Shown one piece after another: positions 1-59,125 of a DNA stretch of 64,000 bases (positions are counted from its first letter, which is position 1; each line of letters begins with the position of its first letter). Below the pieces are notes generated by a model. The model was given only the letters and a program-made list of their open reading frames with translations, had not been told where the DNA came from and made no database searches. This DNA is from Halichondria panicea (lineage: Eukaryota > Porifera > Demospongiae > Suberitida > Halichondriidae), in assembly GCF_963675165.1 (NCBI RefSeq), contig NC_087382.1, forward strand, positions 4,069,963 through 4,133,962, read 5' to 3'. Position numbers and translations under genes: made by a program.

Positions 1-1458
1 AATTATACGTGTTATTGTACATGTATGCAGATAAAGACAAAACAGAACATTCTTGCTCATTTTGTATCCAAAATGAGCAAGAATCAACAAACTATCAGTC
101 TTACGTATATAGGTATTGCTCTATAGGCAGCCAGGCACAGCTATAATTATAACTACATGTAAGCTATACGTATGCACTGACAATTAGCCTCTTTAGCCGT
201 TCGCATAAATACCATTAGTTTGTATCGTGCATATAACTTTTATCACTATGGTATACTGTGACATGATATATTGTATATGCATGCAAATAAAACAAGAATA
301 GTCAGTATCATGTGTAAGCATTTTATAGTCTCATGTATACGTATACATGTACGTATTGTATAGAAGTTAGTCGAGTACAAAAGTCTAAAATAATTATAGT
401 TGAATAGGGAACGTTTGATTTGATTGTGAATTATAACCATATTAGTGTGCAAGGGCACATCATGTGCGTACACAGATCTTACTAATCATTAACATAACAA
501 TAGTTCCAGGTAGTTGGAAACAATTGGATTCAAAGAAACCAAAATTACAAGCATGCTTGTCGGGCAAGAGGTAGCTAGATGCTCATTGTGTCAGGACTCA
601 CAACAACGGTGCATGTATAGCAATAGTAATAGAGTATACAGACAAACATATGGATAAAGGGAACCTAAGCTTGAGGTACCATACACAGAATCTATACAGC
701 AGCCAACATGCATAATTATATACACTATACGTGCATGTACTTGTCTGTACAACATTGCGTCCTCTTGCATGTCTATAAAAACACGACACGACTGCCACAG
801 AATAACCATTCCTCAAACTCATCCAACTACTTACAACCGACTCAAGAAACGCTCAAACATGAAGGTGGCTATTCTCGTCATGGCATTTGTTGCCCTCACA
901 GCCAGTGTGGCTTACGCTGCTCCTACTGAGAATGAAGATGCTGAAATTGAGGCATTTCTGAACAAACTGATGGAGCAAGAAGAAGCCTCTGAGCAAGACG
1001 ACCATGCTGCTCAAATGGAGTCCTTCCTTGCCCAACTCCAAGATGAAGACGATGACGGCGAGGAAGCAGACCTTCAGGAGTTCTTTGCTCGAGAGCAGAT
1101 TCCAGCTAAGGTGCAAGGATGGAGGCGCATAGCCAGGAAGGTGGCAAGAGGAGTGAAGAAGTACGGACCAACAGCACTAAAGTACGGAGTGAAGTATGGA
1201 CTCGGTCGTCGTTAAGTGCCAGTGTTTCAGTGGAAACGTACTGTCGAGAACTGAGAAACTCATGTAGAAATAGACTAGTGTAGAAGAGTAGAACTTAGAA
1301 ATTTGATGCAATTGCAAAAATTGAAATGAGAATTTGTGTTTTCACACGATGTATGTAAGTGTAGTAGGAGTACTAGCGTACACTAAGAAACTATCTAACT
1401 GCAGGGAACCTAGTCACAGGGTAGTATACGCAGAATATAGCAGCTAAAGTAATAATAC
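1..1458 (+). repeat. Segmental duplication unit, copy 1 (peptide gene plus flanks)
   Basis: The sequence from base 1 matches that from about 2738, and in part that from about 10912. Shared blocks include the ATTATACGTGTTATTGTACA start, the CAGATCTTACTAA block, the GCATGCTTGTCGGGCAAGAG block, the promoter, the gene and its 3' flank. The 3' flank similarity runs right up to the dynein exon edge at 1459. Base 1 is the window edge, so the true left end is unknown. Confidence 0.8.
859..1215 (+). CDS. Secreted cationic peptide precursor 1 (GRR end)
   Basis: This is a 118-residue intronless precursor. Residues 1-21 are a signal peptide (MKVAIL start, AYA-AP cleavage region). Residues about 22-86 are acidic, with a DEDDDGEE run. 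From GW at 87-88 a basic tail of 32 residues follows, with IARKVARGVKKYG and two further KYG steps, ending LGRR. GRR is the classic signal for trimming and C-terminal amidation. The ATG at 859 was chosen over the in-frame ATG at 769 because the signal peptide starts there and a TATA box (CTATAAAA, 773-780) lies between them. It lies in a dynein intron, antisense to the host gene. Family membership is certain from its 14 relatives here; antimicrobial or lytic function is inferred from design only. Confidence 0.85.
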   Translation: MKVAILVMAFVALTASVAYAAPTENEDAEIEAFLNKLMEQEEASEQDDHAAQMESFLAQLQDEDDDGEEADLQEFFAREQIPAKVQGWRRIARKVARGVKKYGPTALKYGVKYGLGRR

Positions 1459-4400
1459 GTGTATGGCCTTCCTCCGGCATCTGGGCCATGATATCAGGGG
1501 AGGAGAAGATGGGCTCGAGATAGAGCCAGGTGGCCTGCACTTTGAGCCATTCATCGAGGATTTCTTGGACCAATAGCAACCTGCCCTCCCACTCTCTGTG
1601 GCAGGTAGATGGATTCAAAATGAGAATTTTACAAAAATCCACAATCTACATGATCAGTCTCGTTTTTATAGTTACGTATACGTGTTGCTACTAGGCCAGG
1701 CACACTCAGCTATAACTACATGCATGTAAGCTATATACGTCTGCACTGACAATAATTATATATACCGTGCACGCAGAAAATTTCGTGGTGTTTTTAATTT
1801 TGCGTTTTTCGTGGGTGGCTGCAGAACCTGAAAATTAGAACCCGTGGAAGGCTTTGTATGCCCTCACAATAAAGACAAAATATTGAATTGCACGAAATTT
1901 TACACCCGAGAAATATTCCACCCGTACGGCCTCTTTAGCAGCTCGGATAAATAGCTGTATTACAAGTGCATAACTTTCTACTAAGTGCTACAATATATAT
2001 ACAGGGATGAAAATAACAGCCGGCCACCGGCCAAAATCTGAGCATATAGCCTGCTTGGCCGTCTATTTGTACTGCATGAACTGCCATCTGGCCGGACAAC
2101 AATTGCGCATGCTCAGAAAATTAATTATCTGCCATGTGTGCGAAAAAGGCGAATCAGCAATAATTTGTAGAGCTACTAGATCTATCTACGTACATGCATG
2201 TATCTACGTAGCTAGTTCAAGAAAACTGAGTGCATCCCAGTGCCATTGATGCAAGCAGTTCAAAGCAAGAACCTATCCAAGAAGTGGCAGTGCTCTTATG
2301 AGAAGTATCATCAGTCCTGACTCCATACTGGCTAGATCAGAAAGATATGTTTCTACTCTTTGGTGCTTTTGAGTTTAATAGACAGTCAGTGGACTTTAGA
2401 CTGGTTTAGCTCGAACTTAGAGCCAATATATCCCATGTGGCACTCGTGCATGTGTCACAACTATAACATAATATTATTATTACGATTATAAACATCAAAA
2501 CAAAAATCAATAAGACATAATTATGATTATGACGACAGGCTATCAGGTACATTCATTGGTGGCAGGTGAACATTGAAAATGATTTGACACAATGATAAAA
2601 TACTTATTTTCACCCCTGCGGACATGTGACGTCTGGCTGTGAGTGGCCAGGTCATCATTTGCTGATGGCTGGTCAACATTGAAAATGACCTGACAAAGTT
2701 TAGCCAGTGATAAAATACTTATTTTCATCCCTGATATAATTATACGTGTTATTGTACATGTATGCAGATAAAGACAAAACAGAACATAATAGTCAGTATA
2801 CGTATGTCAAGTGCAGGCATTTTTATAGTCTCATATGCATATAAGTATTGTATAGAAGTACAAAAGTCTAAAATATAGTTGGATAGGGAAAGTTTGATTG
2901 TGAACTATAACCATATTAGTGTCCAAGCTAGGGCACATCATGTGCGTACACAGATCTTACTAACCATTAACATAACAATAGTTCCAGGTAGTTTATTAAC
3001 ACCAGACGGTAGCAAAAAGAAACTTTGTGTACAGCCTATAGCACACATGAAACATTCAGTAAACAGGTAGTTGGAAACAATTGGATTCAAAGAAACCAAA
3101 ATTACAAGCATGCTTGTCGGGCAAGAGGTAGCTAGAGGCTCATTGTGTCAGGACTCACAACAAGGGTACATGTATAGCAATAGTAATAGAGTATACAGAC
3201 CAACATATGGAACCTATTTTTTATGAAGGGAACCTAAGCCTGAGGTACCATACACAGAATCTATACAGCAGCCAACATGCATAATTATATACACTATACG
3301 TGCATGTACTTTTCTGTACAACATTGCGTCCTCTTGCATGTCTATAAAAATACGACACGACTGCCACAGAATAACCAATTTCCTCAAACTCATCCAACTA
3401 CTTACAACCGACTCAAGAAACACTTAAATATGAAGGTGGCTATTCTCGTCCTGGCATTTGTTGCCCTCACAGCCAGTGTGGCTTACACTGCTCCTACTGA
3501 GAATGAAGATGCTGAAATTGAGGCATTTCTGAGCAAACTGATGGAACAAGAAGAAGCCTCCGAGCAAGACAACCGTGCGGCTCAAATAGAGTCCTTCCTT
3601 GCCCAACTCCAAGATGAAGATGATGACGGCGAGGAAGCAGACCTTCAGGAGTTCTTTGCTCGAGAGCAGATCCCAGCTAAGGTGCAAGGATGGAGGCGCG
3701 CAGTCAGGAGTGTGGTAAAAGGAGTGAAGAAGTATGGACCAACAGCATTAAAGTACGGAAAGAAGTATGGACCAACAGTACTAAAGTACGGAAAGAAGTA
3801 CGGACCAGGCGTAGTAAAGGCACTCGGCCGTCGTTAAGCGTCACGCAGTGTTTCATAGTGGAAACCTGCTGTCGAGAACTGAGAAACTCATGTAGAAGTA
3901 GACTATAGTTTAGAAGAGTAGAGCTTAGACATTTTGATGGAAAAATTGAAATGAGAATTTGTGTTTTCACACGATGTACAAGGGTGCTACATGCATGTGT
4001 AGCAGGAGTAATAGCGTACACTGGGAAACTAAATCTAGCTGCAGGGAACAAAATCCTGGGGTACTATACACAGAATCTAGCTAAAGTAACTAACACTATA
4101 TACGCGTATTTGTCTGTACATTTGTATAAAAACACGACACAACTGCCACAGAATAACCATTCCTCAAACTTCTCAAACTACGTACAACTGGCTGAAAAAT
4201 TTACTTATGTACAACATCTTTGTGACTTACTTTATTTCATCCTCGAAAGGTTTAATGAATGGAGAGCCCATCATGGTCTGAGTCTTGACAATGTGGTCGT
4301 CCAGGAGGTTTTGAATGTCATCAACTGACGTGAGGATCTTGGTACCCGTCTCACGGTATGTGATTAGAGTGAACTCCATCTGAAAAAGACACAGACCGTG

Positions 4401-5462
4401 TTGATAATAGTCATGTACTGTGTAAAGTTGCTTCACTTGATTGCTGTACCTACTCGTCATAATGTCCTGTATAAACTGGTTGCCTTAGGGAGGTCTTATG
4501 CTAGCATTAACAGTATACTGAGTGGTACGTATTAAAGTATAAAAGAAACTTTAGGAAGACTAAAAATCAAATTGCAATACACGAGACAATGAAAGGCAAG
4601 CTCTAAGTGCTGCCCCACCTCGTCCCACTCCGATATCATTTTCTCAATGGCTTTCTCGAGTGAGTGCTCCTTGCTGGCTGCCTCACTGATGTTCTCAAAC
4701 TGCTCCAAGTATGTCTCCAGATTCAGATCAACGTATGATCGAAGGTTGGACGTCTGGAAGAAAAGAGGCAATAATATCATATTAAGCTATTGTTGTTGTT
4801 ATCGTGCTACTACAACTTTTTGCGAGCATCAAACATATGCAAACTTTTACGAGTGCAAGTGGCTTCGTAAAAATAAAATCGCAAAGACATAATACAGGTA
4901 CTTTCACGTTTCTTGCCAGATCGCAAAATATAGATAGCAAATTATCAACACTTCTGCTGATTTAGCTCATTTGCAAAGATTTTTCACTCACAAAACATTG
5001 TAGTAATACAGTACGTACATAAATAACGGTCAATTTACCTCTGTTGGCTTTAGGTCTTGTCCGGCTATGGAGCTCATCTTCTCCCAATGTCTGTCCCTGA
5101 GACCAGGGTTGAATATAGCTCCTATGAGAGGGAGGTGCTCCTTGAACGCATCAACACGACCTTTGACCTGCCAGAGAGAAAAAAATTGGCTTTTAATACG
5201 GGACAGTAATAATTAATTGCATGAGCAGCATAATTGTAGAGTACATACATTGCAACAGATGTATATATTGTTGGTAACAAGGATTCGTGGATCGAGCATA
5301 CTTTTTACGTTATTGTTTAGCATAGAACCTTTTTAGCCATATTGAGTGGATTGGGGTTGTCTTGAAATCCTTTCTCCAGTTTATAGAGTGTTCTCCATAA
5401 GATACCGGTTTCATTCTCCACTTGGTCAGGGTCCACACCGCTCATTGAACCCTCCATCCATG

Positions 5463-5544
<82 letters not shown>

Positions 5545-8500
5545 TGGAGGCGAGACATTTATTCAACAAACACGTACTCAGCATACATAATTAAAATACA
5601 AATAATTATTTCACACTTTAAAATACCGGTTCTTATCCTCAAAGTCTGTGACAGTCTTGAACAAATTGCGATAAGGGTCAAGGGTCTTCACAAGTTGTCC
5701 CCGTAGTGGATACTGTGACCTCTCCCAGTCGAAGGCATCCTCTTCCAAATTGAAACCCTCAATTTTTTCTGCGGCTTCCTCGAGCTTTGCGTGAAGAGCT
5801 TGAGATTTCTTGAGGTAGCGTTGTATTTCTTCGAGGTCACTGAATGAAGTGAAATCATTCAGTTGTGTTTGATAGCCCTCCAGTTCTGTGGTGAAACGCT
5901 CACGACGAAGCTACAATATAAATGTGTATGACTGACATCGAATACTATAGACGAATACATGCATTAAATGTATGACAGTGAACACCCTGAAGGAAAATAA
6001 TCCTCGTGTAACAGTTACTACACTGTATATACGTAAATGTAGGTCAACCACTGACATATCATATGTATTGTGAGTTTTGCAATAGTTTAGTGGTCAGATT
6101 TAATACAACGAATTAGTATAATCATGAACATAATGAAAGAACCGCAGGTGCTGATGCCTCGGTGGAGATGCCAAAGCTACATAACCTAATAGCTTTTTTA
6201 TACATTCTAATTAATAATGAATGAACAGGAATTAATTTTGCTGCATGCAAACTCAAAGAGTGGGTAATGATCGACCATGATATTTGTTAAAAATGATCGA
6301 TGCCAAAAGTTCAAGTCTATAAAATTAATGGCTGCATCAGCAAAGCCTTGCAGCTCTCTTCTCATTCTTGCAGCTACCAATAGCTAGCGTTCTAGTGCAG
6401 AGCTAACTACTAAGTAGAGTAGCAACACTCGGTGAACAAGTTTTGCTACCCACTCTTCTGAAAAGGCTGCAATGGCATTCCAATTAAGTAAGCAAAACTA
6501 GGCATAACTCGAGAACAAAGCATTATTTTACAAATCCACAAATTGAAATCCAAGAAAACATGACTAGAAGCCTATAGAAACTCTTACTTGCACTTGATTA
6601 ATCCTTGAGCAGCTGTAGCAGTCTACACACACACACACAGACAGACAGGCAGACAGACAGACAGACACACTACCGTATACCTCGCTTGCGCATGCGCACA
6701 GAGGCATAATTGTACGTACAGTCTTAAGCTATATTGTACACCATGTTATGAACTATCATGCATTATTACAAGCTTATAAACCAATTGGAATTGAAGTAGT
6801 GGCCATTGTTCAAGAACTGGGTTCACCTTAAGTGCCTCCTCTGCTTCTCTCCTGCTTCGTGTGGTGATGTCCCTGTGCTCCTCCAGGATTGGGGGCATGC
6901 GTTCCAACCAACGAAATGTCTCAGAATTGAGCCTCAGGTCAGAAACAGTTATTGAAGTGTGCTCAGCCAGAAACTCCAGTCTGAGTGCATGGGGAAAGGG
7001 AGGAGGTATACATGTACAGTAAGAGATTATGGACTTGCGCGCAAAACTGGATTTCGGCCCATTACAGATGTTGGATTTACTTAAACACATAGAGTTTTTA
7101 GCCTTTAGAATAGCTAATTAACCACACTAAACTCAATTAAGTTATAGGCCTTCAAAATGTACAGTAAGCTATAGTGGACTTGTGCGAAAAACAACCCAAA
7201 AGATGTTGGACACACCGTGTGTTAGAGCTTTTAGCCTTAAAATAGCTACAAAATGCAGCATTTTTAGTAGCCTTAGAATAGCTACAGAATGCAGCATTTT
7301 TTAGTTGTGAAATTAGCTACATAGTTATAGGCCTTCAAAGTATCGAGTGAATGAATAGGAGGTGGTTTTTAGATCGATATACTGTACTTGTACTTGCAAG
7401 CGATGTGTTGATTACCTATGCCTGGCCTCGACCATCTTCTCCTCCAGCTCGACGAGATCTTTCTCTTCAGCATTCTCCACAAACTCCTTGAGCTCCATGA
7501 GGTGCTGAGTGTTGGAGGGAGTAGTGAGAGCCTTGTCCACGATCTCCTCATACTCCTTGCGAATACTGCACAGACAAACACAATTGTCCATTACAAGTGT
7601 GCATACTTTAGTAGCTTCTAAATCATAGCCATAATTATAATTGCATGTTGATATTGGGTAGTGAAAAAATATGTACAGTCATGCAGGTACTAAGGGTTAA
7701 GGTTACGCAACTTTTGGATAAGGAAGCTTGCATGTTAACTGTTAAAAATGGTACACAAGACATTATTAAGTATGCAAATACATGCAATGAGAGATATATC
7801 CATACTCCACACTACAAGCAAAGGTATAGCTATATATATATATATATATATTATGAGCATTAAATTATAGATACACGTTACATTGTACGTACGCTTGGTT
7901 CATTTTCCTGTTGCTATCTGTCATCCGGCTCAGTAGTTGAGTGAGTAGAGCATCAGCTCTCTTTGAGAGAGATCGGGTCACCTCATCACAGTGCAACTCA
8001 AACAGACCCAGTGGCACCAGCTAGGAAGGTAGTACAGTAAAATGTGAAATAATCCCAGGTATGAGTACATATCTGTACTTATATAGTGTTCTTTCAGTAT
8101 AGACCAACATCCCTACAATGGGTCAAATAATAAAGAGGTGGCCTGCTAATAGAAATAGGTTGTGTGCTAGGCTCTATAATAATAATTAATTATTGCTATA
8201 ATAGAAAGGTGACCCACGAGCTGACCACAACAGACAAGTTTCACTGTTACCGTATAGCGGGTAATTTTTGGGGGACAAAGCAGTAGTTAGTCAGCTGCTT
8301 GCACTGCAGGTAAAGGTAGGCAAGGTCGCTTCATTCGTGGGTAAAATATTCGTGGTCAGACCTTCAACCACGAATATTTTGCCCCCACGAAAATTACCCT
8401 CTACACGGTATGTAACTTAACTTAACTACTGCTTTGTCCCCCAAAAATTACCCGCTATACGGTAACAGTGAAACTTGTCTGTTGTGGTCAGCTCGTGGGT

Positions 8501-9778: not shown

Positions 9779-10897
9779 ATGAAGGTGGCTATTCTTGTCT
9801 TGGCCTTGGTTGCCCTCACAGCCAGTGTGGCTTACGCTGCTCCAAGCAACAATGAGAATGCTGAAATTGAAAGATTTGAGGCTCTTCTCGAGAAGATTCT
9901 ACAAAAAGAGATGGTTGAGCAACAGTCAGAATTAAGGGATGATATGGATTTAGCTAACGAGCAAGTAGATGAACCAAGTGGACCCGATCCACCTCAACAA
10001 GATGAAGATGTTGAAATTGAAAGTAGCAAAATCGACACTCTTATCCAGAAACTCTTGAAAAAAAAGTCAGCTAAAGAGGAACATTTCAATGATGAGAATA
10101 TGGCCCAAGAGCAAGATTTTGATGAAGAAGCTTCAGAAGAAGAAAACTTTGACGAGGACTTAGCAGATGAACAAGATGAGAACATGACCCAAGAGCAAGA
10201 TTTTGATGAAGAGGCTTCAGAAGAACACTTTGATGAACAAGATGAGAACATGGCTCAAGAGCAAGATTTTGATGAACAAGCAGAAGAAGAAGAAAACTTT
10301 GATGAGGACTTAGCAGATGAACAAGATGAGAATATGGCCCAAGAGCAAGATTTTGATGAAGAAGCTTCAGAGCAATATGCTGAAGATGAGCAAAGCGGAC
10401 CTGACCCATCAGAGGAGGCAGAAATAGAGAGTGACAAAGAAATTGAAGCTATTATCGAGGAAATTAATCGAAGGTTGACCAAACAGCAAGAACTTGATGC
10501 CAAGCAGCTGGATGAGGACATAGCTCGATCTCAACGTCTCGAAAATGCTGCTTTAGAGGGAACACTCGATGATTTGGCCCAAGAACAAGATGAGGGAAAA
10601 AGTGTTGCTGAAATCGAGAATGAAAAAATCACTGCTCTATTCGAAAAGCTTGCACAAAAATTGGACGAAAAGGAGAAAGAATTGGAAGAGAAAATGGAAG
10701 CATTAGCCCAAGAGCAGGATTTGCAGGAAGACGTGGGAACAGAGCAAGAGGAGGCTATGGAACAAGACCATGATGAGAATGAACAGGCATTCGAGGCAGA
10801 TAAAAAAGAAATGGCTTTCAGTGAGGCTGAAGAAGACGATGATGCTGCCCTTCAAGAGCTCATTGATCAAATGAGGGAATCACTCGACAATAAATAG
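9779..10897 (+). CDS. Acidic secreted protein sharing the peptide-family signal, no basic tail
   Basis: This is a 372-residue intronless frame. Its first 21 residues are the same signal peptide as the cationic precursors. Everything after that is Glu/Asp/Gln-rich. There are repeats built on DENMAQEQDFDEEASEE and NFDEDLADEQ (three to four copies, about residues 115-200), two GPDP blocks, and helical stretches such as IDTLIQKLLKKK and ITALFEKLAQKLDEKEKE. It ends ESLDNK with no GW start, no basic tail and no amidation signal. The TATA box is at 9713-9721. It may be a propiece-only member that lost its basic part and expanded the acidic part. It could neutralise or chaperone the basic peptides, or bind ions; the sequence does not decide. 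Confidence 0.8.
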   Translation: MKVAILVLALVALTASVAYAAPSNNENAEIERFEALLEKILQKEMVEQQSELRDDMDLANEQVDEPSGPDPPQQDEDVEIESSKIDTLIQKLLKKKSAKEEHFNDENMAQEQDFDEEASEEENFDEDLADEQDENMTQEQDFDEEASEEHFDEQDENMAQEQDFDEQAEEEENFDEDLADEQDENMAQEQDFDEEASEQYAEDEQSGPDPSEEAEIESDKEIEAIIEEINRRLTKQQELDAKQLDEDIARSQRLENAALEGTLDDLAQEQDEGKSVAEIENEKITALFEKLAQKLDEKEKELEEKMEALAQEQDLQEDVGTEQEEAMEQDHDENEQAFEADKKEMAFSEAEEDDDAALQELIDQMRESLDNK

Positions 10898-10911
10898 TAG
10901 AGTCTATAATA

Positions 10912-12025
10912 TAAAGATAAAAACAAGAACAGAACATACATAGTCAGTATCGATGTGCTAGCATTTTTATAGTCTCATGTACGTATAAGCATTGTATAGA
11001 AGTTGGTCGAGTACAAAGTCTAAGATAGGGAAAATTTGATTGTGAATTTTATTACATGCATGTGCAAGGATAAACAGATCTTACTAACCATTAACATAAC
11101 AATTTGTTCCAGGTAGTTTATTAACACCAGACGGACGCAAAAAAGGAACTTTGTGTATGCCTAGTACAATATAGAAGCACACACAAAACATTCAGTAAAC
11201 AGGTAGTTAGAAGCAATTGGATTCAAAGAAACCAAAATTACAAGCATGCTTGTCGGGCAAGAGGTAGCTAGAGGCTCATTGTCAGGACTCACAACAACGG
11301 TGCATGTATATAGCAATAGTAAGAGTATACAGACAAACATAGGAACCTATTGTTGATGAAGGGAACCTAAGCCCGAGGTACCATACACAGAATCTATATA
11401 GCAGCCAACATGCATAATTATATACACTATACGTGTATTTGTCTGTACAACATTGCGTCCTCTTGTCTATAAAAACACGACACGACTGCCACAGAATAAC
11501 CGTTCCTCAAACTCATCCAACTACTTACAACCAACTCAAGAAACGCTTAAACATGAAGGTGGCTATTCTCGTCCTGGCGTTTGTTGCCCTCACAGCCAGT
11601 GTAGCTTACGCTGCTCCAACTGAAAATGAAGATGCTGAAATTGAGGCATTTCTGAATAAACTGATGGAGCAAGAAGAAACCTCCGAGCAAGACGACCATG
11701 CTGCTCAAATGGAGTCTTTCCTTGCCCAACTCCAAGAAGATGATGATGACGGCGAGGAAGCAGCCCTTCAAGAGTTCTTTGCTCGAGAGCAGATCCCAGC
11801 TCAGTTGCAAGGATGGTTCAGAAAAGCAGTCAAAACAGTGGGGCGTGCAGCCAAGAGGTATGGACCAAGAGTACTGAAGTACGGACTTAAGTACGGAAAG
11901 TACGCCCTACCCCTACTCGCTGGTCGTCGTTAAGCGTCACGCAATCACTGTGGAAACCTACTGTCGAGAACTGAGAAACAGATGTAGAAGTAGACTAGTG
12001 TAGAGAGTATATAGAGCTTAGAAAT
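10912..12025 (+). repeat. Segmental duplication unit, copy 3
   Basis: The flanks match copies 1 and 2: the ATAAAGA start, the TTTTTATAGTCTCATGTACG block, CAGATCTTACTAACCATTAA, GCATGCTTGTCGGGCAAGAG and the promoter. The unit carries precursor 4. It begins just after the acidic gene that ends at 10897. Confidence 0.8.
11553..11933 (+). CDS. Secreted cationic peptide precursor 4 (GRR end)
   Basis: The precursor is 126 residues: signal 1-21, acidic propiece to about 86, then GW at 87-88. The 40-residue tail begins GWFRKAVKTVGRAAKRYG and continues through VLKYGLKYGKY into a hydrophobic ALPLLA stretch before GRR. The propiece is almost identical to precursors 1 and 2, but the tail differs strongly. 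The ATG at 11553 was chosen for the signal peptide; the upstream in-frame ATG at 11433 lies before the TATA box (about 11468-11474). The tail could form an amphipathic helix with a membrane-inserting end. Function is inferred. Confidence 0.85.
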   Translation: MKVAILVLAFVALTASVAYAAPTENEDAEIEAFLNKLMEQEETSEQDDHAAQMESFLAQLQEDDDDGEEAALQEFFAREQIPAQLQGWFRKAVKTVGRAAKRYGPRVLKYGLKYGKYALPLLAGRR

Positions 12026-13378: not shown

Positions 13379-13948
13379 TTATCCCTTGATTTTGATACCA
13401 CGGTAGTACCTGTACTTCTTGTACATGTAGGGGAAGTTCCTATTCGTGTAGCTCTTGATAAAATTCAGCACTTTGTATCCAAAGTCACCATACGCTTTTG
13501 CTCCCTTATACAACTTGCTGTAATAGTTCTTGTAATAGTTGTTGTAGTATCGCTTGTAATAGCTGGCATAATAGCCGCTGTTATGTGTGTTGTGGCGATA
13601 ACACGACCAAGGCCTAGATATAATTCTTTTCTGACTTGTAGCCTTGTCGTTTTTATCGCCTTGAGCTAGTGACATCAGAGCTTTCATATTAACATCACTA
13701 TCATCTCCATCGTCATCTTGTGCAGCAGCCATTAGAGAGTCGAGTGCTGACATATCTTCATCTTCATCGTTTTCGTCATCATCTTGAGCAGCTGCCAGTA
13801 GCGACTGAAGGTCTACATCATCCTCGTCTTGCTCTGTTGCGTCTCGAGCATTTCCCAGGATTTCTTGAACGTCCTGCTGATTTGGTACAGCCCACACCAG
13901 GCTGCTGGTGAGAGAGATCAGTGCTATCAGAGCAATGGCTGTCTTCAT
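13379..13948 (-). CDS. Secreted tyrosine-rich basic peptide precursor (Gly end)
   Basis: This is a 189-residue intronless frame. Residues 1-20 are a signal peptide different from the rest (MKTAIALIALISLTSSLVWA). The acidic propiece (21-98) carries repeated LMAAAQDDD-type blocks. After KATSQKR at 102-108 comes a basic tail with about 20 tyrosines, many paired (YYKRYYNNYYKNYY), plus one Cys in WSCYRH. It ends IKIKG, a possible amidation site. The TATA box, CTATAAAA on the minus strand, lies at about 14003-14010. This is the most diverged member, grouped by position, architecture and promoter. Tyrosine-rich basic peptides can be adhesive, antimicrobial or cross-linked; none is shown here. Confidence 0.8.
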   Translation of the reverse strand: MKTAIALIALISLTSSLVWAVPNQQDVQEILGNARDATEQDEDDVDLQSLLAAAQDDDENDEDEDMSALDSLMAAAQDDDGDDSDVNMKALMSLAQGDKNDKATSQKRIISRPWSCYRHNTHNSGYYASYYKRYYNNYYKNYYSKLYKGAKAYGDFGYKVLNFIKSYTNRNFPYMYKKYRYYRGIKIKG

Positions 13949-15962: not shown

Positions 15963-16757
15963 TTAGCACTGGTTGGGCTGTTGTCCAGACCTGTATCCCC
16001 TAGACCTTCTCCTGGACATGCTACGCCTTCTCCCAGACCTGCTGGACCTTCTCCTCGATCTGCTGGACCTTCTCCTCGATCTGCTGGACCTTCTCCTCGA
16101 CCTGCTGGACCTTCTCCCAGACCTGCTAGATCTTCTCCCGAACCTACTCACAAACCTTCTCCCAACCCTACTGAATAGCCGTCCCCCGAGACGAGCAACA
16201 CTCCCCCAAAATTGAGCTTTGACATCTGGGTCTTGTGACTTGGCAATCAGCTCTTGAAGAGCAGCAACATCCAAATCACTATCATCACTATCGTCATCTT
16301 GTGATTCTGCAATAAGCTCTTGGACCGCAGCCTCCAATTGAGCTTTGACATCTGGGTCTTGTGACTTGGCGATCAACTCTTGAAGAGCAGCAACATCCAA
16401 ATCACTATCATCAGTATCATCATCTTGTGATGTTGCAATAAGCTCTTGGACCGCAGCCTCCAATTCGTCCTCGTCCTCGTCCTCGTCCTCGTCGTCACTT
16501 TGAACTTCGTCGAGATCGCTGCTCTGGTTATCTACAACATCGTCGTCATCATCATCATCATCACTTTCTTGTTCGGAAGCTGTTTCCTCCTCTTCATTCA
16601 TGAGTTTACGGAGGAAGTCCTCGACTTGTGCCCCATCTTGCTTGTGGGTAGACATCAGATTTTGAATGAAAGATTCCATTTCAGCCTCCTCTTTGTCAAC
16701 CAGAGGAGTTCCATAGGCTGACACAGCCAAAGCAAAGATAAGAATTGCAACCTTCAT
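15963..16757 (-). CDS. Secreted Arg/Ser-rich basic protein precursor with duplicated acidic module
   Basis: This is a 264-residue frame starting at the MKVAIL methionine (an upstream in-frame ATG at 16811 is not needed). It has a signal of about 16-17 residues (AVSAYGTP), then an acidic region with D8 and (DE)n runs. A 42-residue module follows in tandem (residues 99-140 and 141-182, each ending SQDPDVKAQ). The tail (183-264) starts FWGSVARLGG. It contains VGRR, FGRR and SGRR sites and about five SSRSxRR repeats like a protamine, and ends NQC. It has no terminal amidation signal. TATAAA on the minus strand lies at 16811-16816. Repeated GRR could release several short amidated fragments. Arg-Ser repeats also occur in nucleic-acid-binding and silica-associated proteins, so function is open. 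Confidence 0.8.
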   Translation of the reverse strand: MKVAILIFALAVSAYGTPLVDKEEAEMESFIQNLMSTHKQDGAQVEDFLRKLMNEEEETASEQESDDDDDDDDVVDNQSSDLDEVQSDDEDEDEDEDELEAAVQELIATSQDDDTDDSDLDVAALQELIAKSQDPDVKAQLEAAVQELIAESQDDDSDDSDLDVAALQELIAKSQDPDVKAQFWGSVARLGGRLFSRVGRRFVSRFGRRSSRSGRRSSRSRRRSSRSRRRSSRSRRRSSRSGRRRSMSRRRSRGYRSGQQPNQC

Positions 16758-17860: not shown

Positions 17861-17881
17861 GTACATGCATGCATGTATATA

Positions 17882-19428: not shown

Positions 19429-19884
19429 TCAGCCCTTGAAGCACTTGTAAGCCTTGTAGGCTTTTCCAAGAAAAGGTACGTGAGGTAAGACTTTTTTGAA
19501 AATTGGATGCTTAACAACTTTCTTAATCCCTCGGGAGACCTTACGAATGATTTTTCTAATTCTCCACCTACGCCACTGTGCTTTTACTTCGGGGTCTTGT
19601 TCTCGAGCGATCAGCTCTTGAAGCATTGCAATATCGTTGTCTCCATCATCCTCTTGCATTTGGGCCAGCATCGAATCAATATCTTGATCGTTCAGTTCTT
19701 CTTGTTCAGAGACTGTTTCCTCTTCTTCATTCATGAGTTTCTCGATGAATTGCTCAACGTTCTCTACATTGTGTCCTTTCATGAGATGCTGAACAAATAC
19801 CTCAACTTCAGCCTCCTCGTTGATTTGATCGGCTGCAAAAGCTGACACAGCAGCCAACACGAGAACAAGAATTGCAATCTTCAT
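19429..19884 (-). CDS. Secreted cationic peptide precursor 7 (YKCFKG end)
   Basis: The precursor is 151 residues. The signal is MKIAILVLVLAAVSAFA. The acidic propiece (18-103) carries two helical HLMKG/KLMNEEEE blocks. The basic tail from WRRWRIRKIIRKVSRGIKK (104 on) continues through KHPIFKKVLPHVPFLG to AYKAYKCFKG. Terminal G is a possible amide donor, and the single Cys could dimerise the peptide. TATAAAAG (minus strand) lies at about 19932-19939. It is head-to-head with the gene at 20396, and the pair is duplicated at 23135-24517. Confidence 0.85.
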   Translation of the reverse strand: MKIAILVLVLAAVSAFAADQINEEAEVEVFVQHLMKGHNVENVEQFIEKLMNEEEETVSEQEELNDQDIDSMLAQMQEDDGDNDIAMLQELIAREQDPEVKAQWRRWRIRKIIRKVSRGIKKVVKHPIFKKVLPHVPFLGKAYKAYKCFKG

Positions 19885-20395: not shown

Positions 20396-20743
20396 ATGAA
20401 GGTGGCTATTCTCGTCCTGGCATTGGTTGCCCTCACAGCCAGTGTGGCTTATGCTGCTCCTGGCATTGAAAATGAAAATGCTGATGCTGAAATTGAGGCT
20501 CTACTCAGAGAGATCATGAACAAGGGGGAGCAAAATACAGGGGAAATCGAATCGCTTCCACAAGATGAAGAAGATGAGGATAACGAGGCCATATTGCAAG
20601 AGTTTTACGCCCGCGAACAAGTTCCAGTCGAGATCCAAGGATGGTTTAGGCGTGCTGTTAGGAAGGTGGGGCGATTCGTGAGGAGGAAGGTGATTCCTTT
20701 TGCTCGTAGAGTGTACGGGGCCTACAAGTGCTACAAGGGATAG
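20396..20743 (+). CDS. Secreted cationic peptide precursor 8 (YKCYKG end)
   Basis: The precursor is 115 residues. Signal 1-21 is followed by a short acidic propiece with QDEEDEDNEA. The tail runs from GW at 82-83, GWFRRAVRKVGRFVRRKVIP, to VYGAYKCYKG. Arg-rich amphipathic segment, single Cys, terminal Gly. The ATG at 20396 was preferred to 20351 because of the signal peptide. A possible AATAAA polyadenylation signal lies at 20976. Confidence 0.85.
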   Translation: MKVAILVLALVALTASVAYAAPGIENENADAEIEALLREIMNKGEQNTGEIESLPQDEEDEDNEAILQEFYAREQVPVEIQGWFRRAVRKVGRFVRRKVIPFARRVYGAYKCYKG

Positions 20744-22180: not shown

Positions 22181-22245
22181 CTATAAAAGGAAACCAAAAC
22201 AAAAAATCGGAAAATTCACAGTAACGAAACGATTGAAACTCGAGT

Positions 22246-22638
22246 ATGAAGGTGGCTATTCTCGTCCTGGCATTGGTTGCCCTCACAGCCAGTGTGGCTT
22301 ACGCTGCTCCTGTTGAAGAAACAGAGCTTGAGGCTATGCTTCAATTGCAAGATGTTTTTGTATCTCAACAAACAGAAGACAATTTTGCAGACGAAACACT
22401 TCTAGAGAAGCTAATGCAACAAGAAACAGCTTCAGAGCAAGACAAGATGCAGTCTATTCTCGCTCAAATTCAAGAAGAGCAAATTGATGCTGCGCTGCAG
22501 GACTTTTACGCAGAAGAGCAAGTACCGGCTGAACTGCAAGGATGGCTTAAGAAGACGTTCAAAAAGGCCGGAAAATTTCTGAAGAAAAACAAGTCATCAA
22601 TCATCGGGGCAGGTATCAAGTATCTATTGGGTCGCTAG
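22246..22638 (+). CDS. Secreted cationic peptide precursor 9 (LGR end)
   Basis: The precursor is 130 residues. Signal 1-21 is followed by a propiece beginning PVEETELEA, a subfamily mark shared with the genes at 25214, 26228 and 27345. The tail starts with GW at 99-100: GWLKKTFKKAGKFLKKNKS, then SIIGAGIKYLLGR. W followed by a Lys-rich amphipathic helix, a Gly hinge, a hydrophobic helix and an amidation signal is the plan of cecropins; homology is not claimed. TATA (CTATAAAAGG) at 22181-22190. Confidence 0.88.
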   Translation: MKVAILVLALVALTASVAYAAPVEETELEAMLQLQDVFVSQQTEDNFADETLLEKLMQQETASEQDKMQSILAQIQEEQIDAALQDFYAEEQVPAELQGWLKKTFKKAGKFLKKNKSSIIGAGIKYLLGR

Positions 22639-22691
22639 GAAAGAAGCAATGGAACTGACAAGAGACTATTAACTGAACTAGAGTGTAGAAT

Positions 22692-22910: not shown

Positions 22911-23134
22911 TTGCACATGCAGTGTCGAGATACATTAAGACAAAAAAATGGAAAATGTACCGCTACGTGTATACAGCATACAATCAGTGAGAGCTGCTAA
23001 CATGTTCTCAAATAATGAAATCTTCCATAACAATTTATAATCATCATCATGAACACAATATGAAACTACTCTACAAGTTGAGTCCACACTAAAACTATCA
23101 TTCTAACAATTGTTATTGCGTTCATATGCAGCTC

Positions 23135-23653
23135 TCAGTTCTCCCATTTACGTATATTGAAGTGTTTCTTCAAGCACTTGGCACCCCTGTAAACTTTGTA
23201 GGCTGTTCCAACATAAGGGATTTTTCCGATTACATGAGGCGCGATCTTCTTGACCAGTGGGTGCCTAACAAATCGCCTAACTCCTCGATACACCCTGCGA
23301 AATCTGAACCTGCGCCTGCGCCTACGCCTGCCCCACTGTGCTGTCACTTCAGGGTCTTGTTCTCGAGCAATCAGCTCTTGAAGCATTGCATTATCGTCAT
23401 CGTCATCCCCATCATCACCCTCTTGCATTTGGGCCAGCATCAAATCAATATCTTGATCGTCCAGTTCGTCTTGTTCAGAGACTGTTTCCTCTTCTTGATT
23501 CATGAGTTTCTCGATGAATTGCTCAACGTTCTCTACATTTTGTCCTTTCATGAGATGCTGAATAAATTCTTCAACTTCAGCCTCCTTGTTGATTTGATCG
23601 GCTGCAAAAGCTGACACAGCAGCCAACACGAGAACAAGAATTACAATCTTCAT
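23135..23653 (-). CDS. Secreted cationic peptide precursor 10 (extended, no amidation signal)
   Basis: The precursor is 172 residues and a duplicate of precursor 7. It has signal MKIVILVLVLAAVSAFA, an acidic propiece, then W at 107 and an Arg run (GRRRRRRRFRFRR). The HPLVKKIAPHVIGKIPYVG segment follows. Where precursor 7 ends KCFKG-stop, this copy reads KCLKKHFNIRKWEN. The last codons correspond to the 3' untranslated region of precursor 7 (the GAGAACTGA block), so the amidation end was lost and the tail extended. TATAAAAG (minus strand) at about 23701-23708. Confidence 0.85.
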   Translation of the reverse strand: MKIVILVLVLAAVSAFAADQINKEAEVEEFIQHLMKGQNVENVEQFIEKLMNQEEETVSEQDELDDQDIDLMLAQMQEGDDGDDDDDNAMLQELIAREQDPEVTAQWGRRRRRRRFRFRRVYRGVRRFVRHPLVKKIAPHVIGKIPYVGTAYKVYRGAKCLKKHFNIRKWEN

Positions 23654-24157
23654 CGTGATCCAAGTGTTGATGAGAATGTTCAGCAATCATTACTGATGAG
23701 CTTTTATAGTAAAATTTGATACACTATGCTACACGTGTATAGGAGGAAAATTGATTTTTGCTGCAAATGAGATAAACAGTTTCACTTGACAACTGGAAAG
23801 TCTTCCTTCCATTACCAGAACCCAGGTCAAAGGATGCAATGATTCTTATAGGGCATTTGAACCTGTTTACACACGCTAATATGGAGGTTTGTTCCTACCA
23901 ATAGATCTTCCTTGCATTAAGCGGATGGTCTTCCTGTAATAGATGGAAGATCTATAGACAGGAACCTTAATACTAAAGCCCATACTAGTAACAGTAATCG
24001 AAGCTCTTAATATATATATTTATATGTGATGTTCTAAGAGCTGCATGTATACACTGCAATAACAAAAAGAGCGCTTTATAAAAAGCAAGCAGAGTTCACA
24101 AGATTGCATTCATTTGCTCCTAACCGAACTATTCAACTAGTCACGGTTGACTCTAAC
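23654..24157. promoter_or_regulatory. Shared divergent promoter of precursors 10 and 11
   Basis: This 504-bp interval is the duplicate of 19885-20395. It has TATA boxes facing both ways (about 23704 and 24077-24083) and the same TCTTCCTTCCATT and GATCTTCCTTGCATT blocks. Conservation of the middle after duplication suggests constraint or recent origin. Confidence 0.65.
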
Positions 24158-24517
24158 ATGAAGGTGGCTATTCTTGTTCTGGCATTAGTTGCCCTCACAG
24201 CCAGTGTGGCATATGCTGCTCCTGGCATTGAAAATGAAAATGATGATGCTGAAATCGAGGCTCTACTCAGGGAGATCATGAATAAGGACAACAAGGAGGA
24301 GGAGCAAAATACAGGGGAAATCGAATCGCTTCCACAAGATGAAGAAGATGAGGATAACGAGGCCATACTGCAAGAGTTTTACGCCAGAGAGCAAGTTCCA
24401 GTCGAGATGCAAGGATGGTTTAGGCGTGCTGTTAGGAAGGTGGGGCGATTCGTGAGGAGGAAGGTGATTCCCTTTGCTCGTAAAGTGTACGGTACCTACA
24501 AATGCTACAAGGGATAG
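24158..24517 (+). CDS. Secreted cationic peptide precursor 11 (YKCYKG end)
   Basis: The precursor is 119 residues and the duplicate of precursor 8. The tail from GW at 86-87 is nearly the same (GWFRRAVRKVGRFVRRKVIP), ending YGTYKCYKG. The propiece gained KDNKEEE. The recent pair 8/11 shows little tail change while pair 7/10 changed strongly. Confidence 0.87.
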   Translation: MKVAILVLALVALTASVAYAAPGIENENDDAEIEALLREIMNKDNKEEEQNTGEIESLPQDEEDEDNEAILQEFYAREQVPVEMQGWFRRAVRKVGRFVRRKVIPFARKVYGTYKCYKG

Positions 24518-25213
24518 ACTTCTGCGGCTATACACTACGAATTTGAACACTATAAACTATATGTAGAGCTTGAAGGACTATAGAGTGACTATAGAAGAAC
24601 TGTAGAGATTGTCATAAAACTGAGTTGTTCTACTACCGTATTATTATAGAATATTTTGCGAACGTTGACCCTTTGCGATCTAACTATTGCGTTCTGGCAA
24701 GGATTGTTGTGTGTTTACTAGTACTAATTTAGATTTTGCGATTTTATTGTTGGATTGACCAACCCTCGCAAAGTTCGCATATGTTTGATGCTCACAAAAC
24801 ATTCTAGTAATACAGTATAGAAGTTATTACATCAACTATATGTATACATTATACGTGCATGCTTATCAATCTAAGAAGGTCATGACCTATAATATAAAGG
24901 TTAAAAGGTTGCATGATTTGCGTGTATTGTCCGTGCAAGCAACGTAACATGTTACAAACAAACACTCACATGACAGTACTATACATGTACTACTATCATA
25001 GAGCTACGTGTAACACAGGCCTTGGGAAACTTTAAAATCTATATATCTATTGGGAAATACTTCTTTCGCAATAAGAATTTAACTTTCGATATAATTATTC
25101 CCTTGTAAACTGATGGTGCTGAATATAAAAAGGAGCTAGAAAAAAAACATTTAGTACTGCGGTCAGAACAAAAAAATCACAAAACTCGGCAGCTAAACGA
25201 TTGATTCTTAAAC

Positions 25214-25621
25214 ATGAAGGTGGCTATTCTCATCCTGGCATTGGTTGCCCTCACAGCCAGTGTGGCTTACGCTGCTCCTGTTGAAGAGACAGAGCTTGAA
25301 GCTATGCTTCAAGATGTTTTCGGATCTCAACAAACAGAAGACGACACCGCAGACGAAACACTTTTAGAGAAGCTAATGCAACAAGAAACAGCTGCAGAGC
25401 AAGACAAGGAGTCTATTCTCGCTCAAATTCAAGAAGAACAAATTGATGCTGTGCTGCAAGAGTTTTTTGCAGAAGAGCAAGTACCAGCTGAACTGCAAGG
25501 ATGGTTCAAGAGGAAGCTCAAACAGGCAGGAAAGTATCTCAAGAAAAACAAATCAAAGATTATCGACACAGGTATCAAGTATGGACTTAAGTATGGACTC
25601 AAGCGTCTATTCGGCGGCTAG
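25214..25621 (+). CDS. Secreted cationic peptide precursor 12 (FGG end)
   Basis: The precursor is 135 residues of the PVEETELEA subfamily. The tail from GW at 96-97 reads GWFKRKLKQAGKYLKKNKSK, then IIDTGIKYGLKYGLKRLFGG. The KYG step, also present in precursors 1, 2, 4 and 15, is repeated twice. The end is GG rather than GR. TATA (ATATAAAAAG) at about 25123-25132. Confidence 0.87.
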   Translation: MKVAILILALVALTASVAYAAPVEETELEAMLQDVFGSQQTEDDTADETLLEKLMQQETAAEQDKESILAQIQEEQIDAVLQEFFAEEQVPAELQGWFKRKLKQAGKYLKKNKSKIIDTGIKYGLKYGLKRLFGG

Positions 25622-26227
25622 GAAATAAACAAGAGAACTGACAAGAGACAGATGACTTAAGTTCATATTACGAATTTTGCCTAGTACACATAATTTTGTA
25701 GCTTATAACAATTAGCACAGTGTTGAGATAACACTCAATATTATTAGGACCTGAGGGGCTTCATTGATTACATCAAAAATAATTGTGAATACAATGAAAG
25801 TAGCATCTCTAAAACTGCATGAGTGTTGCATGTATATACTATACATACTAAAAGCTGCATGTTTGGTAAAAATATGAAACTGTATAGTATACATCTTGGT
25901 GCTATGTAAACCTCATCGATCCAAGCAAGATGATATTAAACTGTGACCTTTACAGAGGGGGAGATTCATGTGTCGTTGTTAACACTGTTTGTTTTGCGTG
26001 TGTTTTCGGCTTCTCAGAATTCAGAGAAACTATAAAGAAACACACAAAACACACACCAATACTATAAAATATGTAATCTTAGAAAACAACTGAATGGCTT
26101 ATGCAAACATTCTGTTTTAAAATGAAGGTGATCACAGGAATCTATAAAAGAAAGCCAGAAAAATCATCTCTAGTCGGAGCAAATTCACAGAAATTAAGCA
26201 ACTAAACAGTTTATTTTCGAAGTTAAC

Positions 26228-26587
26228 ATGAAGGTGGCTATTCTCGTCCTGGCATTGGTTGCCCTCACAACCAGTGTGGCTTATGCTGCTCCTGTTGAAG
26301 AAACAGAGCTTGAGGCTATGCTTCAAGATGTTTTCGGATCTCAACAAACAGAAGACGACTCTGCAGATGAAACACTTCTACAGAAGCTAATGCAAGCTTC
26401 AGAGCAAGACAAGATGAAGTCTATTCTCGCTCAAGTTCAAGAAGAGCAAATTGATGCTGCGCTGCAGGAGTTTTTCGCACAAGAACAAGTACCGGCTGAA
26501 CTGCAAGGATGGCTTAGCAGAAGTATAAAACGATTTGTCAAGCCAACAATTGGGAGAGTTATCAAGTATGGGGTATTCGGTCGCTAG
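26228..26587 (+). CDS. Secreted cationic peptide precursor 13 (FGR end)
   Basis: The precursor is 119 residues of the PVEETELEA subfamily. The 26-residue tail from GW at 94-95 begins GWLSRSIKRFVKPTIGRV and ends KYGVFGR. TATA (CTATAAAAG) at 26142-26150, preceded by a TGATCACAGGA block also found before precursor 14. Confidence 0.87.
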   Translation: MKVAILVLALVALTTSVAYAAPVEETELEAMLQDVFGSQQTEDDSADETLLQKLMQASEQDKMKSILAQVQEEQIDAALQEFFAQEQVPAELQGWLSRSIKRFVKPTIGRVIKYGVFGR

Positions 26588-26792
26588 GAAAGAAGCAAGA
26601 GAACTAACAAGAGACAGTTGACTTAGAGATTGCAGATTTTGCATAATTTTCTACTGAACAATAATATTAGTATTGAAATGATAACACTGAAATACGATTT
26701 GAAGGGATTTAGAGGGATTATAATAAACTAGTTCACAATGAGCTAAAAACTGGGTGTTGTAAAAGCTGTTAAGTGGTCAAAGTCAAATAAAT

Positions 26793-26994
26793 ACCGTATA
26801 GCGGGTAATTTTCGTAGGGTAAAAACTCGAGAAACGGTGGTTTTCGTTAGTAAAAATTTCGTTTAGTCTTGTGTTGTCTGCCTGCATTTCTACGTTCCGG
26901 TAGGCCATGCCTACGTTAAAATTTCGTGGAGGTCAGCTTGCCCACAAAATAATGAATATTTTACCACACGAAAATTACCCGCTTATACGGTAAT
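26793..26994. mobile_element. CGTATAGCGGGTAATTT inverted-repeat element
   Basis: ACCGTATAGCGGGTAATTTT at the left end is matched by inverted AAAATTACCCGCTTATACGG at the right end. The interior is non-coding. It lies between precursors 13 and 14. Confidence 0.7.
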
Positions 26995-27344
26995 AGAATG
27001 AAACTGTAAAATACATTGAGAATAGATAATAGTACTCTTGATGCTATGTAAACCTCATCAATCCAAGAAAGATAATAATATGCTATTAAACTGTGACCTT
27101 TACAAAGGGGGGAGGGGGTGTTCAAGGTTTCATTGTTATACTATTCAGAGAAACCGAAGACACACACAAACAAATAACAACACTATATGTTATCTTAGAG
27201 CTAACAACTAAATGGCTCATCCAAACATTTTGTTTTAAAATGGAGGTGATCACAGGATCTATAAAAGGAAGCCAGAAAAATAATGTTATAGTCGGAGCAA
27301 ATTCACAGAAATTCAGGAACTATAAACGGTTGAAACGCTCAAAC

Positions 27345-27734
27345 ATGAAGGTGGCTATTCTCGTCCTGGTATTGGTTGCCCTCACAGCCAGTGTGGCTTA
27401 CGCTGCTCCTGTTGAAGAAACAGAGCTTGAGGCTATACTTCAAAAAATGAATCTTAGAACCTTTCTTAGAACCTTTTTTTTCGGAGGATCTCAACCAACA
27501 GCAGCGGACGACTCTGCAGATGAAACACTTCTAGAGAAGCTAATGCAACAAGAGACAGCTTCAGAGCAAGACAAGACAAAGTCTATTCTCGCTCAAGTTA
27601 AAGAAGAGCAAATTAATGCTGCGCTGCAGGAGTTTTTCGCAGAAGAGCAAGTATCGGCTGAACTGCAAGGATGGGTTAACAGGGCAATAAACTATATCAA
27701 TAGGACAGGTACGAGGTTGTTCCCTGGCCGCTAG
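27345..27734 (+). CDS. Secreted peptide precursor 14 (short tail, PGR end)
   Basis: The precursor is 129 residues of the PVEETELEA subfamily. The tail from GW at 109-110 is only 21 residues, weakly basic (GWVNRAINYINRTGTRLFPGR less one residue). The propiece holds an inserted hydrophobic stretch at about 33-48 with RTFLRTFFF, from a short tandem repeat (CTTAGAACCTTT). The ATG at 27345 is taken as the start. An ORF begins at 27093, but the TATA box (CTATAAAA, 27259-27266) lies after it. Confidence 0.82.
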   Translation: MKVAILVLVLVALTASVAYAAPVEETELEAILQKMNLRTFLRTFFFGGSQPTAADDSADETLLEKLMQQETASEQDKTKSILAQVKEEQINAALQEFFAEEQVSAELQGWVNRAINYINRTGTRLFPGR

Positions 27735-28949
27735 GACTAAAAACGGAACAACATCAAAGAGACAATTGACTGAAGTAGCATTTTAGTTTTGCAGTTGGAT
27801 AATTTTAACTCCATGCAGTGTACATGTATGTGTTTATACTTGAATGAACAACATATATAATACAACATTACTGTCAAAATTGAATTATAATACGTAACAC
27901 TAATACTATGATATTATCCTATGGATACTGAGGATTATCACGAGTCTGTGCCAGTAACTGCACGAGTGCCTGCAAGGCACGAGTGACAGTTACTAGGCAC
28001 GGACGAGTGATAATCATCAGTATCCATGGGATAATGCATTTATTGCTTGGCAACCAAAATGTAGGTTGAATCTGCGCATGCGCAACATGCGGTTGCTTTA
28101 TCAACCAGAAGAATGCGTAGCAACAAAATTGAGTTCTCCCAGTTGAAGACGAGTTTAAGAGAAAGAAAACAGCTAGAAAGACAAAGAAATAAGACTCTAG
28201 AACACCAAGAGAGCTTGCAGAAGGCTACTTAAAGATTTTGTAGAGAACAGACAAGAAAAAAAGACAAGAAAAACGTTGACAACCAGCAACCCGTTTTGAA
28301 AATGGATAGTTCTGAAGGATAAACAGCATGTGCTTGCTTTCTATCATGCTCCAGTGTATCAGAAGAGGAAACATGCACCGCTATAACTGAAGAAAAGTGT
28401 GACAACCGTTTTTGAAGCCAAAACGACTTTATACAAGCCTGAACAGGCTTATATGGTGGTGCAGTACACTTCTACATGTGCAATACTCCGCTCAAAGCAC
28501 CCACTTCCAACACTGATGCCTGTTTGATGCGTTAAATAAGAACACTGACAACCTCCTGACCCTCAGCTTCACTGCAAAAAGAGCACAGAAGTGATACAGA
28601 GCATCAGAAAACAAGAAAAGAGACTGATAAACATTGCAATGCATGATTATAAGTGTGTAAACTATGTTTTTCTTGTTCTCTCACTGCTGAAAACGTTTTA
28701 TTCCAAATAATAATCACTTCCTAGTGTGCAATAACAAGTGTGCAATAATACTTCCGGGTGTGCGATATGGAAAAATATCTGCACAGTCGGTGATGAGTCG
28801 CTTCCTGTGCAATTTGAATGTAAAACGCTGATGTCAGCACTTATTAAAAAGCAATAATTGATATTATTATCTATAAACAAACTGACAAACAATAGTATAT
28901 GCTACTAAGCTGAAATATCTGTTCTGAAGGTTTTTTCGATTGTTAATTT
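27735..28949. other. Spacer with one foldback repeat, no gene seen
   Basis: Around 27916-28033, GGATACTGAGGATTATCACGAG and an inverted CGAGTGATAATCATCAGTATCC pair around a centre with CACGAGTG steps, forming a foldback. The rest is AT-rich with no supported frame. Confidence 0.55.
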
Positions 28950-29444
28950 CTAGCCAGCCAACAAAGGAAGAATAACTGGCAATAATGCTAGGCCAATTTT
29001 AAGCACTGTGGGGCCGTATTTTTTTAGCACCTTTCCTGTTATTTTAAGAACTTTCTTTCCAATCTTGAGCCCTTTTTTCCCAAGCTTTCCGACTTTTGAT
29101 TTGAATTTTCGAAGCTTCTTTCCCAATTTCTTGAAAGCTTTCTTGAAGTTCTTCTTGAAACGGGCCTGTACTTCAACCGGTACTTGCTCTTGTGCAAAGA
29201 ATTCTTCAATTGCTGCGTCGACATGAGCATCGTACATCGCATTGGTCTCCAATTCCACCTGATCATCATTCTGTTGCTCTGCTATTTGTTGGAAAAGTTC
29301 GTTGATGAAACGCTCAATTTCAGCAACTTCTTTAGAAGACATCAACTCTTGAATGGCAGCTTCATCTTCATTCTCAGTAGGAGCAGCGTAAGCCACACTG
29401 GCTGAGAGGGCAACAAATGCTAAGACGAGAATAGCCACCTTCAT
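28950..29444 (-). CDS. Secreted Lys-rich peptide precursor 15 (long tail, LLAG end)
   Basis: The precursor is 164 residues. Signal 1-21 is followed by an acidic propiece with EEFFAQEQVPVEVQ. The tail (about 94-164) is the longest Lys-rich one: ARFKKNFKKAFKKLGKKLRK, several GKK/KIGKK steps, one KKYGPTVLK, then a very hydrophobic IGLALLPVILPLLAG end. The terminal G allows amidation. A basic helix array plus a hydrophobic end fits a membrane-active peptide, inferred. TATAAAAG (minus strand) at about 29493-29500. Confidence 0.87.
   Translation of the reverse strand: MKVAILVLAFVALSASVAYAAPTENEDEAAIQELMSSKEVAEIERFINELFQQIAEQQNDDQVELETNAMYDAHVDAAIEEFFAQEQVPVEVQARFKKNFKKAFKKLGKKLRKFKSKVGKLGKKGLKIGKKVLKITGKVLKKYGPTVLKIGLALLPVILPLLAG

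Positions 29445-44307: not shown

Positions 44308-59125
<14,818 letters not shown>

Follow-up and report, generated by a model that had tools for sequence, protein, structure and literature searches.

Cathelicidins and frog-skin preprodermaseptins join a conserved pre-pro part to chemically diverse tails. In invertebrates, arminin precursors of Hydra and placozoans are described as comprising a signal peptide, an acidic N region, a basic C region and a C-terminal Gly (PMC12013895), and the myticalins of Mytilus as a multigene set of linear cationic peptides with conserved signal and propiece and a hypervariable mature part (PMC5577615). Cationic defense peptides are hardly known from sponges according to one recent review; reviews name ASABF of Suberites as a sponge gene-encoded antimicrobial peptide (PMC10608444, PMC12466427), and one lists cyclic peptides beside it (PMC12466427). 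A mass-spectrometry survey is reported to have detected no amidated peptide in the sponge Ephydatia, though Porifera have PAM (PMC9525235). Here we analyze a 64,000-nucleotide stretch of chromosome C6 of the breadcrumb sponge Halichondria panicea, a demosponge (4069963-4133962; genome of 131 Mb), hereafter the window, which carries an array of 15 genes for acidic–basic peptide precursors. They probably belong to a secreted, amidated multigene family of sponge host-defense peptides. An earlier note on this DNA had proposed a defense or venom-like peptide locus; its interpretation is partly supported, and amidation ends, a PAM gene, tail exchange and polyproteins are new here.

A family of precursors with acidic propieces and basic tails

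All 15 of the uninterrupted frames proposed earlier were confirmed within 859..29444 by re-reading the frame translations. They are listed below by window position and strand, with lengths in amino acids (aa).

859..1215, +, precursor of 118 aa, group A; basic tail 1117-1212, end GRR
3430..3837, +, precursor of 135 aa, group A; tail 3688-3834 with KYGPT repeats, end GRR
9779..10897, +, acid-only member of 372 aa; family signal peptide, without basic tail
11553..11933, +, precursor of 126 aa, group A; tail 11811-11930, end GRR
13379..13948, −, precursor of 189 aa, Tyr-rich class; tail 13382-13630, end KG
15963..16757, −, precursor of 264 aa, Arg/Ser-rich class; tail 15966-16211, without amidation end
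19429..19884, −, precursor of 151 aa, group D; tail 19432-19575, one Cys, end KG
20396..20743, +, precursor of 115 aa, group B; tail 20639-20740, one Cys, end KG
22246..22638, +, precursor of 130 aa, group C; tail 22540-22635, end GR
23135..23653, −, precursor of 172 aa, group D; Arg-rich tail 23138-23335, without amidation end
24158..24517, +, precursor of 119 aa, group B; tail 24413-24514, end KG
25214..25621, +, precursor of 135 aa, group C; tail 25499-25618, end GG
26228..26587, +, precursor of 119 aa, group C; tail 26507-26584, end GR
27345..27734, +, precursor of 129 aa, group C; weakly basic tail (+4) 27669-27731, end GR
28950..29444, −, precursor of 164 aa; Lys-rich 71-residue tail 28953-29165, end G

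The suggested plan of signal peptide, acidic propiece and basic tail was supported. The precursors have a signal peptide as judged by inspection, and propiece and tail carry opposite charges in 35/35 members (−10 to −53 and +4 to +35, respectively). Within the window, 14 of the 15 genes have a basic tail (net charge +4 to +32), as previously counted, and 11 of these 14 tails start with GW or W, in line with the 'mostly' of the earlier note. The exception, 9779-10897, is acidic along its whole length; inspection by eye of 0.7 kb of downstream sequence, in all three forward frames, revealed no tail, and the gene possibly encodes a neutralizing partner or is a remnant. The A-x6-A-x2-Q-x-P core is invariant across 13 diverse rows, and some other members depart from it at the P (S in 27345, R in C6:4061725). 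Cys is absent from the propiece (0/36), and each tail contains one (12 tails) or none (24 tails; n = 36).

Using TATA[AT]A[AGT] as the pattern and 40–110 bp upstream of ATG as the search range, we found a TATA match in 15/15 window genes, at 55–90 bp where ~50–90 bp had been reported, and in 33/38 family genes examined, compared to 9.7% of 20,000 random positions in the same DNA. The TATA box, the short leader and the single frame through to the stop fit the description of the window genes as intronless. The record protein LOC135337519 (P0004) starts 30 codons upstream of the signal-peptide Met. Its annotated start is probably too early, because this extension (window 769-858) runs across the TATA box; the same is seen in the C6 4.064 Mb gene.

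No named family had been recognized from the letters, and searches of Pfam (all 15 window proteins) and NCBIfam (8 proteins, 6 from the window) likewise gave no credible family match; in the PDB there was no match for one precursor (E value up to 1) or two tails (E up to 10). A DUF4142 match on 19429-19884 (28.3 versus 27 bits) was rejected as chance, its paralogue 23135-23653, 76% alike, having no such match. Many Pfam families above cut-off on the eight-module polyprotein P0057 were rejected as a repeat artefact, as 0 stretches pass alone. No paper on this family was among the matches listed in one open-access library.

To gauge the size of the family, we combined 40 homologues with 12 window members in a profile, which retrieved 38 frames at E<1e-7 from the 2,036 screened (each ≥50 codons); the 12 window members match by construction, which does not apply to the three left-out window members or those outside. 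The family signal is more than chance, because the profile finds these 38 frames and the propieces show a ratio of nonsynonymous to synonymous substitution (dN/dS) of 0.12–0.44. The frames lie at C6 3.890–3.930 Mb (14), C6 4.062–4.099 Mb (18, of which 15 fall inside the window) and C6 4.371–4.378 Mb (3), giving 35 members in three C6 clusters, and C4, C5 and C11 carry one each. Later searches found a polyprotein frame of 733 codons at C5:3164068-3166173, which we assume to be record P0057 (717 aa), and an Arg/Pro-rich member at C6:4519222. The array recognized earlier is real, but its 15 genes belong to a larger family with at least 40 open frames, a lower bound from ~0.3 Mb of the 131 Mb examined as nucleotides and from genome-wide protein searches. 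A start-lost copy (C6:3915799, profile E 0.034), a family copy with three stops (C5:3255167) and two Tyr-tail fragments (C6:3924723 and C6:3926500) were also found, which we read as birth and death of members.

Among homologues, 40 proteins match one query and 37 match an alignment, and a polyprotein query gave 10 among the 7,999 best word-sharing candidates scored. The four named matches are all uncharacterized H. panicea proteins, and LOC135335836 is identical, letter for letter, to a C5 translation. P0036, P0044, P0045 and P0047 form a separate clade with support 100/100 (tree of 89 columns). P0044 is ≤55% like anything matched in the H. panicea genome and P0062 ≤57%, in short pieces only; the clade and P0062 are probably from other sponges.

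Amidation ends, PAM exons and the propiece–tail border

Of the single-peptide precursors, 33/36 have G, GR, GRR or GKK, an amidation signal, at the C terminus, compared to 76/1,997 for the remaining stop-to-stop frames in this DNA, most of which are not genes. The ratio is descriptive, as the family members are not independent. Relative to shuffled tails, the amidation end was present in 32/35 with 4.9 expected. The same end was found in 22 of 30 homologues (of 40) that are identical to no member here, and several of the eight without it look truncated or frame-shifted.

The genome has a PAM gene, known from exon pieces. At C7:569-572 kb, four exon frames match solved PAM structures (5wm0, 3fvz, 1yjl and others) over PHM and PAL parts, with the best E per exon frame ranging from 2.5e-13 to 4.9e-4; dopamine beta-hydroxylase matched a PAM exon only at E 0.47. 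On the PAL exon, designed 'Pizza' propellers reached a higher summed score over short repeats only, and PAM gave the sole long stretch. Copper-monooxygenase exon clusters are also present at C1:14.86-14.92 Mb and C12:177-183 kb, with a further match at C1:17666302. The C1 genes were rejected as PAM, as the one stretch read contains motifs that we take to be DBH/MOXD-like.

At the border between propiece and tail, a conserved EQxPxExQ had been described. A border motif does exist, in the looser form [ES]Q-x-[PS]-3 or 4 residues-Q, in 13 of the 14 tailed window genes; 13379-13948, with only KATSQ at the border, departs from it. The border Gln is present in 20/20 aligned rows, a set chosen from groups A and B and relatives, and in 32/35 members by regular expression or by hand, a partly circular count. 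When the border was set by charge only, Gln occurred in the interval before it in 26/35 versus 14.4 expected, a post hoc test. Neither a dibasic pair in the last six propiece residues (0/36) nor a furin-like RxxR site in the propiece (0/36) was found.

Diversity and evolution of the tails

The tails range from 21 to 131 residues and differ in chemistry. Lys/Arg-rich tails comprise groups A–D and others; further classes are Trp-rich (five genes), Tyr-rich (six), Arg/Ser-rich (two) and Arg/Pro-rich (one), together with a small Tyr/Arg pair. Tyr makes up 24–34% of the six Tyr-rich tails and Ser 27% of one Arg/Ser tail. By hydrophobic moment, the only measure used, the tails may be helical, and 22/35 are more amphipathic than their own shuffles (p<0.05, uncorrected).

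Alignments show recombination in two genes, and in one of them the tail has been swapped. In C6:3925193, nucleotides 1–607 of the extracted stretch are 92% like a Tyr-class gene and nucleotides 620–763 are 91% like a Trp-class gene, the swap point lying 8–12 codons upstream of the tail; C6:3893521 combines a Tyr-class start (79–82%) with an Arg/Ser-class rest (77–88%). Polyproteins P0041 and P0057 contain five and eight basic modules, respectively, each preceded by LQDA/V-x-FQ. P0058 and P0059 resemble versions of P0041 with four and three modules, and comparison with P0041 (C5) suggests polymorphism in module number.

Selection was assessed by Nei–Gojobori counts per segment. The propiece dN/dS of 0.12–0.44 holds in 9/9 groups, and 7/8 chosen pairs, drawn from seven groups with A and G left out, gave p<0.05 (the eighth, 0.056). 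The propieces are under purifying selection, the absence of which the earlier note had named as a refutation. Six tail pairs were tested, of which three were significantly purifying and none the reverse. Identity within group A is 96% over the 100 bp before ATG, 96% in the signal, 91–93% in the propiece, 71% in the tail and 85% over the next 100 bp, and such a dip, with the tail below both the propiece and the first 100 bp after the stop, is seen in groups A, Yb, G and RS. For homologue tails, 30 full-length proteins were picked from 65 and 29 were scored: the pre-pro part was ≥70% like one here in 22/29, some being identical, and for 7 of these 22 none of the 35 tails used for comparison reached 60% likeness to the homologue's tail, which may reflect either within-species variation or origin from a near relative.

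Other genes in the window

A dynein heavy chain exon (DHC_N2) lies within the array at 4535-4780 (−). Two adjoining long single-frame C2H2 zinc-finger genes occupy 39977-43516 (−), and at ~49400-58750 (−) lie exons with matches to kinase, myosin head and IQ; their order is suggestive of a kinase–myosin gene, presumably class III-like.

Discussion

If these genes encode amidated host-defense peptides, as we favor, the signal peptide would take the precursor into the secretory pathway, where the acidic propiece may neutralize the cationic tail for storage. The tail would then be freed by a protease that ignores dibasic and furin sites at the border and probably cuts after the conserved Gln; Arg and Lys would be trimmed by a carboxypeptidase and the C-terminal Gly converted to an amide by PAM. 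Short amphipathic and Trp-rich peptides released in this way could keep seawater microbes or symbionts in check by damaging their membranes. Diversity would arise as genes duplicate locally, as their tails change and as precursors occasionally recombine, the last seen in the two genes above, with the polyproteins as a branch that packs five or eight basic modules into each chain.

Several observations weigh against parts of this proposal, and the family is known here from gene sequences. None of the six Tyr-rich tails is significantly amphipathic, and these tails may do something else. The amidation end is absent from 3/36 members (the two Arg/Ser-rich genes and 23135-23653). Outside the 36, the polyproteins also lack it, as do the two-module C11 gene and the acid-only member. 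The border Gln was itself partly used in setting the border; with the charge-only border, the interval after it shows no excess of Gln (19/36 versus 22.0 expected), and dibasic pairs are common inside the tails, some directly after the border. Concerning diversification, group-mean tail dN/dS is 0.19–0.70 and never >1, single tail pairs >1 lack significance (one tested, p=1), and 5/9 groups (B, C, D, W and Y) have tails at least as conserved as the 3′ flank. Moreover, synonymous divergence (dS) climbs with dN from signal to tail (signal, propiece and tail: 0.04, 0.17 and 0.47 in group A; 0.02, 0.28 and 0.91 in group C). This climb suggests 5′ conversion or constraint, or tail replacement, and conversion of the 5′ half or replacement of tails would explain the pattern equally with positive selection. 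These values do not demonstrate positive selection on the tails.

The likeliest alternative is a structural or biosilica role, in which the acidic propiece holds polycations for nucleation of spicule silica or, through Tyr-rich repeats, for matrix cross-linking. This sponge makes silica spicules, but silaffins are not expected to show amidation ends, Trp-rich tails or amphipathicity, and we regard such a role as unlikely. Its appeal lies in the Tyr and Ser contents given above and in diatom precedents: sil1p is described with an acidic stretch followed by basic repeats, the layout seen here, and cingulins as combining silaffin-like regions with Tyr/Trp-rich domains (PMC3820600). The Ser/Lys make-up of silaffins was found in 0/36 tails, by a criterion meant for domains of ≥100 residues (PMC3820600), and Pfam gave no credible family match. 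A mixed family is possible, in which a structural role may fall to the Tyr-rich and Arg/Ser-rich classes.

Less likely still are cytotoxins directed at predators or competitors, the 'venom-like' side of the earlier proposal, which found no support. Such linear cationic peptides can lyse animal cells. The sponge peptide ASABF is reported to lyse red cells and to be toxic to molluscs (PMC10608444, PMC3210614), but nothing at the locus bears on delivery or animal targets. Amidated signaling peptides are very improbable: although PAM and C-terminal amidation are described as neuropeptide hallmarks (PMC9525235), the tails here are long, highly charged and poorly conserved across groups, and dibasic sites at the border and RxxR sites in the propiece are lacking.

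Under the host-defense reading, the genes might, more tentatively, form a combinatorial immune-peptide system of the sponge, in which one acidic chassis is fitted with at least five cationic tail chemistries through duplication and recombination, cleaved by a Gln-directed protease and finished by PAM. If so, these peptides would be the missing sponge PAM substrates, and C-terminal amidation would serve immunity in an animal that lacks neurons. The family offers at least 40 candidate genes, and with them candidate substrates of PAM, in one sponge, for which proteome data (PXD063400; PMC12345144) and a study of the lipopolysaccharide response, with only 27–37% of the responding genes annotated (PMC8242945), already exist, and how sponges select their microbes becomes a testable question at the effector level.

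Compared to known systems, the family shares with cathelicidins and preprodermaseptins, from another phylum, the plan of a conserved pre-pro part with diverse tails, and Pfam scans of the 15 window proteins found no cathelin domain. To styelins (PF17562) one tail is weakly alike (14.5 bits, E 0.048, below the 27-bit cut-off), and styelin precursors arrange their pieces in another order than those here. ASABF is also a sponge gene-encoded antimicrobial peptide but is described as Cys-stabilized, and here each tail has at most one Cys (36/36). Myticalins have a Gly/Arg amidation end as here; however, their mature part is central, with a dibasic site, a C-terminal anionic piece and introns (PMC5577615), whereas the order here is signal, anionic and cationic, with the mature part last and no dibasic pair at the border. 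Arminins, again from another phylum, have the plan in common, with acidic–basic charge pairing (35/35 here) and a C-terminal Gly end (33/36 here), but are described with DE cleavage motifs (PMC12013895) in place of the Gln border; they were compared by description, and no named arminin was among the homologue matches, most of which are nameless, in searches that reach only relatives sharing short exact words. The nearest plans are those of arminin-type precursors and myticalins, beside which the sponge genes stand as a distinct family for which we claim membership in neither.

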